Shown in pieces: positions 14,923 through 20,095 of a DNA stretch of 64,000 bases. Position 1 is the stretch's first letter. Each line of letters starts with the position of its first letter. Below the pieces are notes generated by a model. It was given only the letters and a program-made list of their open reading frames with translations, was not told the DNA's origin and made no database searches. Source of the stretch: Mangrovimonas cancribranchiae (lineage in GTDB: Bacteria; Bacteroidota; Bacteroidia; Flavobacteriales; Flavobacteriaceae); NCBI RefSeq assembly GCF_037126245.1, contig NZ_CP136925.1, forward strand, positions 2,806,001-2,870,000, written 5' to 3'. Both the position numbers and the translations under genes were made by a program.

Positions 14923-15993
14923 TTAAGCATTTTTGCCCAAGGTATCAAAAATATTCCTCAAGTCTTTTTTATATGGTAAATAGTCTGCGCGTCCTTTTTT
15001 AAAGATGTCGTTGCTGTTACCTTGACCTCTTCTTAAGGCTTTTTGCTCTTCGTAAGGCAATTGTATAATCTCTTGACAGGTTGAAGAACAACAGTTTTCC
15101 ATTTTCTCTTTACAGTCATCGCATTGAATAAATAATAAATGGCAGGCTTCGTTAGCACAGTTTGTGTGGGTGTCGGCTGGTTTTCCGCATTGGTGACATT
15201 GTGCGATAATATCGTCTGAAATACGTTCGGCACGACGATCGTCAAACACAAAGTTTTTACCAATAAACTTGTTATCTAGACCTTCCTCATTTACTTGGTG
15301 TACATAGTTTATAATGCCTCCTTCTAACTGAAATACATTTTTAAATCCACGATGCTTGTAATAGGCACTGGCTTTTTCACAACGAATGCCTCCCGTACAA
15401 TACATCACCAAGTTTTTATCTTCTTTATGCTCTTTTAAATCATCTTCTATAATAGGCAGAGACTCTCTAAAAGTGTCTACATCTGGTGTTATAGCGTTTT
15501 TAAAATGACCTATTTCGGTCTCGTAGTGATTACGCATATCTACTAAAACCGTGTTGGGGTCTTCAATTAGCTCGTTAAATCTTTCTGCATTAACATGTTC
15601 GCCTTTATTGGTTACATCAAAGGTAGCATCGTTTAAACCATCGGCTAAAATCTTTGAGCGCACTTTTACCTTTAATTTTAAAAATGAAAAATTATCTTGC
15701 TCTACAGCAATATTTAATCTTACGTTTTCTAAAAAAGTAATAGTGTCTAAATGGTTTTTAAACGCATTAAAATTTTCGGCTGGCACAGATAATTGTGCAT
15801 TAATACCTTCGTTAGCAACATAAATTCTTCCTAGGACTTCAAATTCATCCCAAGCCAAGAACATATGATTTCTAAAAATTTCTGGATTTCCAATTTTGGC
15901 GTACTTGTAGAAAGAGATTGTTAAGCGGTCTTTACCAGCTTCTTCAATAAGTTTTGCTCTTTCTTTAGCGCTTAAGTTATTGTACAGTTGCAT
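14923..15993 (-). CDS. trhO: tRNA uridine(34) hydroxylase TrhO, rhodanese-like
   Basis: The 356-residue protein matches the YceA/TrhO family, which uses oxygen to hydroxylate wobble uridine of tRNAs on the way to cmo5U/mo5U. An N-terminal ferredoxin-like domain ('ISFYKYAKIGNPEIFRN') is followed by a rhodanese domain with active-site loop 'CTGGIRCEKA' (Cys199, second Cys205). The C-terminal tail is Cys-rich ('CHQCGKPADTHTNC', 'CDDCKEKMENCC'), likely a zinc site. The start codon at 15993 has a TTTG-N17-TACCTTTG promoter 44 nt upstream. The radical SAM gene follows with no spacer. The family call is strong; the specific modification in this organism is inferred. Confidence 0.93.
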   Translation of the reverse strand: MQLYNNLSAKERAKLIEEAGKDRLTISFYKYAKIGNPEIFRNHMFLAWDEFEVLGRIYVANEGINAQLSVPAENFNAFKNHLDTITFLENVRLNIAVEQDNFSFLKLKVKVRSKILADGLNDATFDVTNKGEHVNAERFNELIEDPNTVLVDMRNHYETEIGHFKNAITPDVDTFRESLPIIEDDLKEHKEDKNLVMYCTGGIRCEKASAYYKHRGFKNVFQLEGGIINYVHQVNEEGLDNKFIGKNFVFDDRRAERISDDIIAQCHQCGKPADTHTNCANEACHLLFIQCDDCKEKMENCCSSTCQEIIQLPYEEQKALRRGQGNSNDIFKKGRADYLPYKKDLRNIFDTLGKNA

Positions 15994-16037
15994 GCTATAC
16001 TAATGTTTTAAGGTTAAAGGTTTTATTTTATTTGGGG

Positions 16038-16066
16038 CAAAGGTACGTATTTTTTGTTGTTGCAAA
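16038..16066 (-). promoter_or_regulatory. Promoter of trhO (TTTG-N17-TACCTTTG)
   Basis: Minus strand: TACCTTTG at 16045-16038 with TTTG at 16066-16063, a 17-nt spacer. This matches the Bacteroidota -33/-7 pattern and predicts a leader of roughly 40 nt for trhO. Confidence 0.75.
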
Positions 16067-16069
16067 CAA

Positions 16070-16100
16070 AAAGCACTTTGTAGACTGTACAAAGTGCTTT
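16070..16100 (-). terminator. Strong minus-strand terminator of the 30-codon gene
   Basis: AAAGCACTTTGTA (16070-16082) and TACAAAGTGCTTT (16088-16100) form a perfect 13-bp stem with a 5-nt loop. Reading on the minus strand, a TTTTTGTTT tract follows; the plus strand has no T-run. It therefore ends a minus-strand transcript starting between here and recA, which points to the small gene at 16162-16254. Confidence 0.85.
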
Positions 16101-16108
16101 AAGTAGAC

Positions 16109-16164
16109 TAACTCGTTATTAATTTTTTAATTTCTTTTCTTAAATCAAAAAAGTTAACGAGTTA
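16109..16164. repeat. Long inverted repeat at the 3' end of the mini-lipoprotein gene
   Basis: TAACTCGTTA (16109-16118) and TAACGAGTTA (16155-16164) are exactly complementary. Inside them a TTTTTT run faces an AAAAAA run. The right arm overlaps the stop codon of the 30-codon gene, so the transcript would have a hairpin at its stop, followed by the terminator. Confidence 0.55.
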
Positions 16165-16254
16165 ACCCCCATCGGCTTTACAACTGCTATTTATAAGTAT
16201 AACAGCTGAAACGCCTAATATCGAATTTCTAATAATTTTTCTAAAAAATCGCAT
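16162..16254 (-). CDS. Putative 30-residue mini-lipoprotein
   Basis: This is a 30-codon minus-strand frame with ATG start and TAA stop. The N-terminus is strongly basic (MRFFRKIIRN), then hydrophobic (SILGVSAVILI), then NSSC with the cysteine at residue 25, followed only by KADGG. That is a lipoprotein signal peptide attached to a five-residue mature tail. Asn at -3 makes the lipobox imperfect. A strong terminator lies 62 nt downstream in the right direction and nothing else on that strand explains it. A TATTTTTC box 31 nt before the start (16286-16293) is a weak promoter candidate. Tiny lipoproteins of this design are known in Bacteroidota (for example the 'smalltalk' type), but I cannot assign this one. 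Confidence 0.6.
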   Translation of the reverse strand: MRFFRKIIRNSILGVSAVILINSSCKADGG

Positions 16255-16291
16255 CCGATTAAAATATTTTAAACGTTAATCAGAGGAAAAA

Positions 16292-16325
16292 TATGGTGCG
16301 AGCCTTAAAAAGGAATCACACCATA
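16292..16325. promoter_or_regulatory. Two-tier dyad upstream of recA
   Basis: Outer arms TATGGTG (16292-16298) and CACCATA (16319-16325) enclose inner arms CCTT/AAGG (16303-16306 and 16310-16313). It lies between the divergent mini-lipoprotein gene and recA, so it may be an operator for either. An RNA hairpin is possible only if recA transcription starts upstream of it. Confidence 0.4.
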
Positions 16326-16396
16326 CCGTTTTCATAGCAAATCTTCCCCATTTTATATAGTAGATGCATAAAGTAGAAAAAGGTTGCGTTGTAAAA

Positions 16397-16426
16397 TTGA
16401 AAAGATGAAAACTTATCGTATTTTAG
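16397..16426 (+). promoter_or_regulatory. Weak candidate promoter of recA
   Basis: TTG (16397-16399), a 19-nt spacer and TATTTTAG (16419-16426), which differs from TAnnTTTG at one position. It would give a ~25-nt leader. Confidence 0.4.
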
Positions 16427-16455
16427 CATGAATAATTTAACGCAAAAGACGAGTA

Positions 16456-17463
16456 ATGAGTAACGAAAAAGATGCCAAATTAAAAGCCTTAAAACTTACC
16501 TTAGATAAATTAGACAAAGCTTACGGAAAAGGTACCGTAATGAAAATGAGCGACCAAGCTATTGTAGATGTTGATGCGATTTCTACAGGATCTTTAGGTT
16601 TGGATTTAGCCTTAGGCGTAGGCGGCTACCCTAGAGGTCGTGTTATAGAAATATATGGTCCAGAATCTTCTGGTAAAACCACGTTAACGCTTCATGCTAT
16701 TGCCGAGGCACAAAAAGCCGGAGGTATTGCTGCGTTTATTGATGCCGAACATGCTTTTGATAGATTTTATGCCGAAAAACTAGGGGTGGATATTGACAAT
16801 TTAATTATTTCGCAACCAGACCATGGTGAACAAGCCCTTGAAATTGCCGATAATTTAGTACGCTCTGGCGCTATTGATATCATTGTAGTAGACTCTGTAG
16901 CAGCTTTAACACCAAAAAGCGAAATTGAAGGCGAAATGGGAGACTCTAAAATGGGATTACATGCCCGCTTAATGTCTCAAGCTTTAAGAAAGCTTACAGC
17001 TTCTATTAGCAAAACCAATTGTACTATGGTGTTTATTAATCAGCTGCGTGAAAAAATTGGTGTTATGTTTGGTAACCCAGAAACAACTACGGGTGGTAAC
17101 GCCTTAAAATTTTATGCTTCGGTACGTTTAGATATTAGACGCTCTACACAAATAAAAGACAGCAATGGTGAAGTTTCTGGTAATAAAACTAGAGTTAAAG
17201 TTGTTAAAAATAAAGTAGCACCACCATTTAAAACCGCCGAGTTTGATATTATGTATGGCGAAGGCGTTTCTAAAGTTGGTGAAATATTAGACATTGCTGT
17301 AGATTATAATGTTGTTAAAAAAAGTGGCTCATGGTTTAGTTATGGCGACACCAAATTAGGGCAAGGCCGAGATGCTGTTAAAGCATTAATAAAAGACAAC
17401 CCCGAGCTTATGGAAGAGCTTGAAGAAAAAATTAAAGAAGAAATAAAAGCTTCTAAAGAATAA
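16456..17463 (+). CDS. recA: Recombinase RecA
   Basis: The 335-residue protein polymerises on single-stranded DNA, drives strand exchange and activates LexA-type cleavage. Walker A is 'GPESSGKT' (residues 68-75). '[18 protein letters not shown]' and the L2-region '[24 protein letters not shown]' are the usual RecA signatures. The C-terminus is acidic and lysine-rich as in other RecA proteins ('[16 protein letters not shown]'). It is monocistronic: a strong terminator follows and unrelated or divergent genes flank it. Its upstream region is unusually structured (see the dyad and the mini-lipoprotein gene). I saw no recognisable LexA box. Confidence 0.99.
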
Positions 17464-17496: not shown

Positions 17497-17566
17497 TTTA
17501 CTACGCAACCTTTTTCTACTTTCTGCATCTACCAATTAAAGGAAGAATTGTATTTATTTTTTTATA

Positions 17567-17971
17567 ATGAAGAAAACCCTAGCAATATTACTTATTTTAC
17601 TTACTTTTTCATGTTCTGTAGAAGATGATTCTCCAGAAACATATCATGAGATTTTACCTGTAGAATCAGCTATTGTGCCGGATGAATTTGAACTTAACGA
17701 AGTTTATGACATTCAACTAACTTATATTCGTCCTACAAATTGCCATGCGTTTTACGATATTTATTACGCCAAATCTGAAAACGAAAGAACAGTGGCTATA
17801 ATTTCAACAGTATTTCCAAACGATGCTTGCGAAACTATTGATGCCGAACTTGAAATCTCTTTCAACTTTAAACCAACAGAAACAGGATCGTATATATTTA
17901 AGTTTTGGCAAGGAGAAGATGATAATGGCGAAGACGAATATATGATTGTTGAAGTACCTGTTGTAGAATGA
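17567..17971 (+). CDS. Small putative lipoprotein of unknown function
   Basis: The 134-residue protein starts 'MKKTLAILLILLTFSCSVEDDSPE', a lipoprotein signal with cysteine at 16, followed by an acidic linker and a likely all-beta domain. Cysteines in 'TNCHAFYDIYY' and 'NDACETID' could pair. I do not recognise a named family. It lies 24 nt upstream of an ECF-type sigma factor on the same strand. It is therefore probably the first gene of a three-gene unit (lipoprotein, sigma factor, membrane-barrel protein) and could be its sensor or target. That role is inferred from position only. Confidence 0.7.
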   Translation: MKKTLAILLILLTFSCSVEDDSPETYHEILPVESAIVPDEFELNEVYDIQLTYIRPTNCHAFYDIYYAKSENERTVAIISTVFPNDACETIDAELEISFNFKPTETGSYIFKFWQGEDDNGEDEYMIVEVPVVE

Positions 17972-17995: not shown

Positions 17996-18541
17996 TTGGG
18001 TTTAAAAAAACTCATACAAAAATGTAGTAACAATGATACTAAAGCGCAAGGCGAACTTTACCATCTCTTTTCGAGAACACTGTTTTCTATTTGCTTAAAG
18101 TATTCTAGAAACTACGCTGAGGCAGAAGATAATCTGCAAGATACCTTTGTGACTATTTTTAAAAAAATATCACAATATAAAGGTAAAGGTTCTTTTGAAG
18201 GTTGGATGAAACGCATTGCTATAAACACAGCGTTGCAACGGTATAGAAAACAAGATGTTTTTGAAATTATCGATGAAGAAAATATTGAAAGTAATCAAGT
18301 TGATATAAATGATGACATTGATATTCCTTTAGACTATTTATTAGAATGTGTGCAAGAATTACCCGACAGATACAGACTGGTTTTTAACCTTTATGTGTTA
18401 GACGGGTTTTCACATAAAGACATTTCAGAAATGCTTTCCATTTCAACAGGAACATCAAAATCTAACCTTTCCAGAGCAAGAGCTATTTTAAAAGAAAAGG
18501 TGACGCATTATTTAGAAAAAACAAACTCACAATCATTATAA
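17996..18541 (+). CDS. ECF-type RNA polymerase sigma factor
   Basis: The 181-residue protein has sigma region 2 ('LYHLFSRTLFSICLKYSRNYAEAEDNLQDTFVTIFKKI', then 'FEGWMKRIAINTALQRYRK') and region 4 ('LPDRYRLVFNLYVLDGFSHKDISEMLSISTGTSKSNLSRARAILK'). The start is TTG at 17996. No in-frame ATG occurs before the Met in 'GWMKR', and a TAA at 17975 closes the frame upstream. Homologous starts of the MSLKKLIQxC type support this choice. It directs polymerase to a specific promoter set. The gene 3 nt downstream encodes an anti-sigma-like membrane protein, its probable regulator. Target genes are unknown. Confidence 0.92.
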   Translation: MGLKKLIQKCSNNDTKAQGELYHLFSRTLFSICLKYSRNYAEAEDNLQDTFVTIFKKISQYKGKGSFEGWMKRIAINTALQRYRKQDVFEIIDEENIESNQVDINDDIDIPLDYLLECVQELPDRYRLVFNLYVLDGFSHKDISEMLSISTGTSKSNLSRARAILKEKVTHYLEKTNSQSL

Positions 18542-18544
18542 TAA

Positions 18545-20095
18545 ATGAGTGATAAAAAACATATAGACAGAATTTTTCAAGAAAAATTCAAAGATTTTGA
18601 AGCCTCACCAAGCAAACAAGTTTGGGAAGGCATTCAAAATGAGCTTCATCAATCTGAGAATAATAAAACGCCAAAAGCTATTCCTTTTTGGGTTAAACTT
18701 TCTAGCGTGGCAGCTATTTTAATTTTTATACTCGCTATAAGTGGTTTACTACAAATGGATTTTAACGAGAATGAAGAAAAAAAACCTACTGTTGTTAACA
18801 CGAATACTAATAATATAAAAACAGCAGAAAACGACTCTCCTTCTAGTACAAAAACGCTTAATACAAACGCTTCCAAAAATGCATCAATAGAAGAAAGTGA
18901 TAAGCAAGAGGTTTTGTTAAAACAAAAGCAAAACATAAAAACAAAGCAATATGTTTCTACGCCTTCAAAAACAGTTTCTAATAAAGCATTAACCGAAAGC
19001 GGCAAGACAGCTTCTAACACAAGTACTGTGACAAAAAACACAGGGCGTAAAAATATGGCAAGTGCCAATAAAACTCAAAACACAACACAATTAGCTAATA
19101 CAAACCAAACACCTGTTAATACAAAAAATCGTACTAACTCTTTAAAACAAAAGAATATTTATCAAGCTTCTAATGATGAAAGTAGTATTTATTCTTATTC
19201 TTCAACAGCAAAAAATAGCATTACAGAAATAGAAAGCTATTTAAGCCCTAACTTAAAAACAACTATACCTAAAAATGGAATAACCGCAGATACCTTAATA
19301 ACAATTCATACAGAAAATGCTATAGAAAAAGCAATAGCCACAGCTAAAGAAGCCGAACAAAATAATGAAGAAGAAAACGTAACAAACAGGTGGCAAGTTA
19401 GTGCTAACATTGCCCCTGTTTATTACAACTCTTTTGGCGATGGCTCACATATTGATGAGCAATTTGTAGGAAACTCTAAAACTGGAGAAGTTAACACAAG
19501 TTATGGTGTTAATGTAAGTTATGCTTTAAATAAAAAATGGGCGCTTAGAACAGGTATAAATTCATTAAATTTAAGTTACGATACTAATGGTGTCATCTTA
19601 TACGAAAGCGCAGGAAATCAGCAAATTTCTCCTTTAAAGAATGTCTCTTTATCGTCCAGTAGTCAAAATATTGCTGCTATTAGCTCTAATACTATTCAGG
19701 CCTCTAATGTTCCTGAAATATTCTCTCAAAACTACAATGCAGCTATTAGTCAACGATTGAGCTATTTTGAAATTCCTATAGAAATAGAATACAATTTATT
19801 GGAAAGTAGATTTGGAATACAAGTTATTGGTGGTGTTAGCACCTTTTTCCTAGACGACAATCAGATTTATTCTGAATTTGATGGCTATAAAAATCATATT
19901 GGCGAAGCAAACAATATTAACGATTTAAGTTTTAGTGGTAACCTTGGGCTTGGTTTTAACTATAAATTTACCGATACGTTTAAATTTAATTTAGAACCAA
20001 CATTTAAGTATCAATTTAACGCATACGAAAACACGTCTGGTAATTTTAACCCATATATTATTGGCGTGTATTCAGGATTTAGTTTTAGGTTTTAG
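18545..20095 (+). CDS. Anti-sigma-like inner-membrane protein with C-terminal outer-membrane beta-barrel domain
   Basis: The 516-residue protein has an odd layout. Residues 1-45 are soluble and hydrophilic ('HIDRIFQEKFKDFEASPSKQVW'), as expected for a cytoplasmic sigma-binding tail. Residues ~47-69 form one membrane helix. Residues ~75-280 are low-complexity Asn/Thr/Lys/Ser-rich spacer. From about 284 ('RWQVSANIAPVYYNSFGDGS') to the end there are alternating beta strands finishing 'GVYSGFSFRF', a terminal Phe typical of outer-membrane barrels. It starts 3 nt after the sigma factor stop. The inference is a protein bridging both membranes that could hold the sigma factor and respond to envelope state; the barrel could instead be a soluble beta domain. 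Confidence 0.75.
   Translation: MSDKKHIDRIFQEKFKDFEASPSKQVWEGIQNELHQSENNKTPKAIPFWVKLSSVAAILIFILAISGLLQMDFNENEEKKPTVVNTNTNNIKTAENDSPSSTKTLNTNASKNASIEESDKQEVLLKQKQNIKTKQYVSTPSKTVSNKALTESGKTASNTSTVTKNTGRKNMASANKTQNTTQLANTNQTPVNTKNRTNSLKQKNIYQASNDESSIYSYSSTAKNSITEIESYLSPNLKTTIPKNGITADTLITIHTENAIEKAIATAKEAEQNNEEENVTNRWQVSANIAPVYYNSFGDGSHIDEQFVGNSKTGEVNTSYGVNVSYALNKKWALRTGINSLNLSYDTNGVILYESAGNQQISPLKNVSLSSSSQNIAAISSNTIQASNVPEIFSQNYNAAISQRLSYFEIPIEIEYNLLESRFGIQVIGGVSTFFLDDNQIYSEFDGYKNHIGEANNINDLSFSGNLGLGFNYKFTDTFKFNLEPTFKYQFNAYENTSGNFNPYIIGVYSGFSFRF

Follow-up and report, generated by a model that had tools for sequence, protein, structure and literature searches.

The gap between recA and trhO in Mangrovimonas cancribranchiae raises the question of whether a very short gene on its minus strand acts through the peptide that it encodes, through its RNA, or through both. 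The window, that is the whole stretch of 64,000 nucleotides that was analysed (contig NZ_CP136925.1), carries recA at 16456..17463 on the plus strand and trhO, the gene for a tRNA uridine-34 hydroxylase (NCBIfam TrhO), at 14923..15993 on the minus strand. A first-pass annotation of this DNA had placed a hidden 30-codon gene on the minus strand, divergent from recA and sharing with it an intergenic region of 462 nt. Both the setting (recA/trhO gap, 15994-16455) and the gene are borne out: the reading frame runs from an ATG at 16254 to a TAA at 16162 (minus strand, 16162..16254), encodes MRFFRKIIRNSILGVSAVILINSSCKADGG, and is considered real by its conservation and substitution pattern. The reading that is on balance favoured here, from comparisons of sequence, is that of an ECF-sigma-dependent envelope-stress RNA gene that in a large clade would be bifunctional, specifying a microprotein and a regulatory RNA at once.

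A 30-codon ORF is by itself unremarkable, and the significance of this one comes from its being conserved in place and length. The search of the family for the peptide beside recA, proposed with the first-pass annotation, was carried out with the whole-length protein and without any motif; about 35 of 199 family genomes match (E<1e-3), all matches spanning residues 1-30, and in 20 of 20 loci examined the ORF adjoins the divergent recA at the same place, with trhO co-directional on its 3' side in all except L026, where no trhO is seen. Scanning GTDB genomes with a pattern yielded 93 relatives, the genera including Mangrovimonas, Psychroserpens, Lacinutrix, Olleya, Gelidibacter, Algibacter, Bizionia, Winogradskyella, Formosa and Xanthomarina, and the ORF is kept between recA and trhO in dozens of Flavobacteriaceae genera. 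Its length is almost always 28-31 codons, its C-terminal end reads C-[KR]-x-D-G-G-stop, and M1, G14, N22, C25, D28, G29 and G30 are invariant among the 20 rows that were collected motif-free. Across 78 distinct orthologs, an uncorrected dN/dS-like ratio of 0.41 was obtained in frame versus 0.76-0.93 in the other frames (0.30 in frame for close pairs), third codon positions take 49% of the substitutions, and length changes occur in frame, 6-nt deletions among them; the C-terminal value of 0.07 is inflated, the rows having been selected on their C-terminus. Stop codons in this core set are TAA (50) and TAG (28) with no TGA, which does appear among diverged members. It could be argued that the ORF has arisen by chance inside a conserved non-coding RNA, given that the RNA is conserved without it in many genera (see below); the fixed length and frame, the third-position bias, the in-frame indels and the gap between 0.41 and 0.76-0.93 speak against this, and the substitution pattern already contradicts such a reading, which retains hardly any credibility.

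The peptide has a basic start, a short hydrophobic helix and the C-[KR]-x-D-G-G end, and is without any Pfam or NCBIfam match. An order-wide profile search of 246 genomes gave no peptide match outside the family, so short a profile having little reach. The NCBIfam 'smalltalk protein' groups Bacteroidota peptides of about 30 residues with a basic start, a hydrophobic middle and a Cys near the end, features that the present peptide shares; it differs from them in lacking an NCBIfam or Pfam match, in its ending and in its genome context. A structure model consists of a single helix over residues 2-26 (pLDDT 75, pTM 0.29), which carries little information and would be compatible with a small membrane-associated helix.

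The first-pass annotation had interpreted the product as a tiny lipoprotein, with signal-peptidase-II cleavage before Cys25 leaving a mature CKADGG in the envelope. The basic start, the hydrophobic stretch, the modelled helix 2-26 and the presence of Cys in all close orthologs agree with this, and an envelope-type sigma factor would fit as well. The sequence preceding the Cys does not conform to a lipobox, where -3 is aliphatic or small and -1 is G, A or S: of the 78 distinct orthologs of 30 codons, 77 have Asn at -3, and at -1 there is Asn in 44, Ser in 33 and Gly in one, whereas in lipoproteins of the adjacent sigma operon L, F or I predominate at -3 and S at -1, Asn not being common there. 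In the run that compared the peptides with these lipoproteins, eight 28-residue peptides were out of register, which makes the tally over the 78 orthologs the more reliable one. The 10-residue Kyte-Doolittle maximum is also lower, 2.1 for the peptide versus 2.8 for those lipoproteins. Nor is the Cys invariant, being absent from diverged orthologs at the same site (L190, L205, L211, L219 and L154), which retain M[KR]F..[KR] and [DE]GG-stop with endings such as NGSFKSDGG, NGSSRVDGG, YMSYRLDGG and STFTLEGG; examples are MKFFKRTLLTSQLGFKITLSINGSFKSDGG (L190), MRFLKTSFILNKFGATTTVVLNGSSRVDGG (L205) and MRFFVKTFFSRLLNIQVSVYMSYRLDGG (L219), and MKFKKCTIHLKDGAGSTTLGASSTFTLEGG (L211) has no Cys near its end. 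The peptide is thus probably not a lipoprotein, and the original interpretation has become improbable.

Three features absent from the first-pass annotation, namely the co-directional trhO just 3' of the gene, an upstream ECF promoter and a hairpin around the stop codon, bear on how the gene is expressed. The sequence GCAACCTTTTTCTACTTTATGCATCTA (16387-16361, minus strand), 5' of the ORF, fits GCAACCTTT-N12-CATCTA, an ECF-type promoter (GCAACC-TTT-N12-CATCTA) that is matched exactly at two places, and no more, in the 3.1-Mb genome. These flank recA, the second lying at 17505-17531 on the plus strand, 5' of an operon that comprises a 134-aa lipoprotein gene (17567..17971, plus strand; no Pfam or NCBIfam family), an ECF sigma factor gene (17996..18541, plus strand; Sigma70_r2 and r4, sigma70-ECF), whose product is the presumed activator of both promoters, and a gene for a probable Dma-type anti-sigma (18545..20095, plus strand). 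The latter assignment follows from sequence and layout, with N-terminal helices, one transmembrane helix, a tether and a C-terminal barrel-like region; the OMP_b-brl match of this last region is weak (E 0.015, under the cut-off), and a single-sequence model (pLDDT 34) places helices at 3-19, 22-39 and 48-74 with low confidence. The sigma and anti-sigma-like pair (17996-20095) is fixed downstream of recA across Flavobacteriaceae.

The divergent promoter pair likewise flanks recA across the family, the upstream copy being conserved in most Flavobacteriaceae examined and the downstream copy in nearly all sampled loci. Among 80 sampled loci, with kinship uncorrected, the upstream copy is found in 61 of 73 with a lipoprotein-containing sigma operon versus 0 of 7 without one, these seven probably representing one or a few clades; the RNA promoter is missing where the 134-aa lipoprotein gene is missing. 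Two genomes (L089 and L204) keep the full ORF, and no ECF promoter can be recognised 5' of it. The SM6 ECF motif was considered as a counterpart and set aside, its -10 box, CGT, being unlike CATCTA and probably belonging to another sigma (PMC9723704). As in ECF-sigma-dependent envelope sRNAs, one promoter type is shared by the RNA and the sigma's own operon, and position and motif together make it likely that the recA-linked ECF sigma controls the sORF RNA, which it would transcribe from a start placed near 16354. In other genomes, further exact promoter sites precede an outer-membrane protein gene (L234) and, in three genera (L231, L235 and L237), a small lipoprotein gene (CKYIAFGSKPCGGP motif) followed by one for a PlsC-like acyltransferase, the lipoprotein-plsC pair being a candidate conserved regulon operon. 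With such sites before envelope genes, the regulon points to envelope stress, the role that would then fall to the sORF unit.

The 3' limit of the unit is given by a perfect 13-bp stem with a 5-nt loop (16070..16100, minus strand), which the first-pass annotation had described as a terminator acting on the minus strand; a T-rich tail is present in that direction alone, and the stem is conserved among relatives with compensating changes. A self-contained unit of about 290 nt, from near 16354 to near 16070, would be ended by its own terminator, and it is very likely a transcription unit in its own right with a translated, conserved ORF. The terminator stands as the gene's 3' structure but is not the only one, since a second hairpin (16106..16168, minus strand) holds the stop codon: its 5' arm consists of the last Gly codon, the stop codon and CTCG, and its 3' arm is CGAGTTAGTC. 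Where the ORF is present, its stop codon begins a conserved CUAACUC element (UA[AG]CUCG), which CGAGUUAGUC closes into the hairpin. The arms covary, pairing at 8.6 of 10 positions versus a mean of 7.0 and a maximum of 7.6 when arms are shuffled among species, and the 246 nt around the ORF fold with a z of -7.8 on the minus strand and -3.5 on the plus strand relative to shuffles. The folded window transcript has the CUAACUC element fully paired, and the hairpin opens once the stop region is blocked in imitation of a ribosome. An Rfam covariance-model scan of the window gave no match above the gathering threshold, the hits being at chance level.

An ORF and a terminator 5' of a co-directional trhO in nearly all loci could also denote a leader peptide and attenuator, in which translation of the ORF would set terminator formation. 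Such a reading was rejected and is very improbable: trhO has its own TAnnTTTG box, TACCTTTG (16045-16038, minus strand), past the terminator and conserved among relatives; the two hairpins are independent, no competing or alternative pairing being seen in the folds; and in Mangrovimonas sp. ST2L15 (L005/L149) the unit is intact although about 5 kb separate the terminator from trhO.

The regulatory part of the favoured reading is suggested by relatives in which the ORF is lost. Besides the form with the ORF at the recA site (form I), two others can be told apart, and many relatives keep the promoter and the terminator without the ORF, giving an RNA of about 110 nt with the conserved CUAACUC element. 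In form II, of about 110 nt, GCTATGAAA stands at the 5' end, followed by a hairpin with GACUAAC in its loop and by the terminator; form III, of genera further removed, carries ACTAACTCA close to its 5' end and GCTATGAAAAAG beyond it. Among 52 ORF-less RNAs, GCTATGAAA is found in 26 (0.08 expected) and ACTAACTCA in 18 (0.03 expected). The former element is retained 5' of the sORF in long-leader loci and lies at 16330..16338 (minus strand) in M. cancribranchiae, where its ATG is not the sORF start. Decayed ORFs are seen beside an intact promoter and terminator (L151, L157, L170, L176 and L201). The third form, with GGTGGTCATTTCC, GCTATGAAAAAG and TGGCC elements, was observed in L216, L217, L220 and L243-L252 and is apparently able to adopt a different structure. 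A large genus (g127), perhaps Flavobacterium, is without this unit at recA. Rfp18, a structured sRNA of Flavobacterium psychrophilum with predicted targets among secreted metalloproteases and an adhesin, was compared by its description (PMC9723704); its identity with the present RNA found no support.

A simpler alternative is that the unit is a plain mRNA, the ECF sigma driving a 30-aa membrane-associated or cytosolic peptide, with the hairpin and the terminator stabilising and ending the message, and with ORF-less relatives carrying a remnant or an unrelated RNA. The coding signature and the intramolecular pairing of the CUAACUC element suit this alternative, as does the finding that the ORF-bearing genomes searched are not enriched in complementary sites. 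It does not account for the promoter, the 5' element, CUAACUC and the terminator persisting in many genera that lack the ORF, a pattern that a remnant would leave unexplained, and it is regarded as a real but rather unlikely possibility. In four ORF-bearing genomes, M. cancribranchiae included, complements of the form WYGAGTTAGTC are not enriched, those besides the RNA itself being, with one or two exceptions, chance matches inside coding sequences.

Candidate pairing sites come from the short form. Exact matches to TTTGAGTTAGTC number 4-7 per genome where listed, the RNA itself included, in six form-II genomes, compared with about 0.75 per genome estimated in this analysis from base composition, and all matches examined in these genomes lie outside coding sequences or over a stop codon. 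Sites are found at the 3' ends of leuB (four genomes) and of genes for secreted and SusD-like proteins, and opposite-orientation sites at the 3' ends of secDF and of a gene for an acyl-CoA dehydrogenase, as well as between rplI and the gene of an outer-membrane protein; the 12-mer (TTTGAGTTAGTC / GACTAACTCAAA) overlies the secDF stop codon and follows the leuB and acyl-CoA dehydrogenase genes, target names having been read from translated sequences, with Pfam run for leuB alone. Recurrences were recorded at L265, L266, L268, L270, L269, L272, L274, L278, L279, L275 and L283 (match near position 1500). Occurring in both orientations, these complements could be a general UTR (3'-UTR) element rather than sRNA targets, and base-pairing with envelope mRNAs is a lead that they provide.

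Returning to the bifunctional reading, the recA-linked sigma, which with its anti-sigma would form a Das/Dma-like, ECF21-type envelope-stress pair, would transcribe the sORF unit, which in a large Flavobacteriaceae clade would encode a microprotein of about 30 residues and carry the CUAACUC element and the terminator, the same regulatory module existing alone as the RNA of about 110 nt in other genera. A regulatory function of this RNA in trans is plausible, and for M. cancribranchiae itself a candidate. Since the element closed by CGAGUUAGUC starts with the stop codon, a ribosome that ends translation of the ORF would have to open the hairpin, and a translation-gated RNA may be envisaged, in which ribosomes that terminate, and that may pause at the conserved D-G-G-stop, free the hairpin-locked pairing element and expose the regulatory sequence. 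This gating of RNA function by translation is speculative and, as an account of the unit, doubtful.

The layout of the sigma operon matches that of Das/Dma, an ECF21 sigma with a dual membrane-spanning anti-sigma known from Bacteroides, to judge from the portion of that work drawn on here (PMC13088901). Common to both would be an ECF sigma beside an N-terminal anti-sigma-like part, a transmembrane helix, a long tether, a C-terminal barrel and an associated lipoprotein, the barrel being weakly supported here and the ECF21 subgroup presumed; the present pair differs in being located at recA in Flavobacteriaceae, and the same portion describes no RNA or microprotein gene under a Das/Dma promoter. 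Envelope-stress sigma factors of Proteobacteria and Fusobacteria act partly via small RNAs (for Fusobacterium, PMC11005410), and the literature searched contained no small-RNA arm of the Das/Dma systems, which are peculiar to Bacteroidota. The locus offers a concrete and widely conserved candidate for such an arm, whose promoter, RNA and peptide are all defined, in culturable marine flavobacteria; the gated reading, if true, would give the Das/Dma envelope-stress response of Bacteroidota its first non-coding arm. The origin and decay of bifunctional RNAs may also be illuminated by this locus, where a conserved RNA element is joined to a stop codon and where, in ORF-less relatives, the RNA has outlasted the microprotein.

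SgrS/SgrT is a dual-function sRNA in which, as here, one RNA carries a small ORF 5' of a presumed pairing element and the terminator; the present RNA differs in that its pairing element begins with the stop codon of the ORF, which a hairpin encloses. The conserved ORF within the RNA that characterises this class is indicated by the signs of coding selection. The sigmaE-dependent envelope sRNAs (FoxI/FoxJ of Fusobacterium, PMC11005410; MicA, RybB and MicL of E. coli) resemble the unit as short RNAs made from a promoter shared with an ECF sigma operon, with a terminator, a conserved presumed pairing element and an envelope-looking regulon. The phylum and the sigma family are different here, an ORF is conserved in one clade, and there is no sequence relation (the Rfam scan being negative), pairing in the present case being presumed from sequence alone. 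By analogy, the closest functional counterparts of the unit would be the sigmaE-dependent sRNAs of Proteobacteria and Fusobacterium, together with dual-function RNAs.
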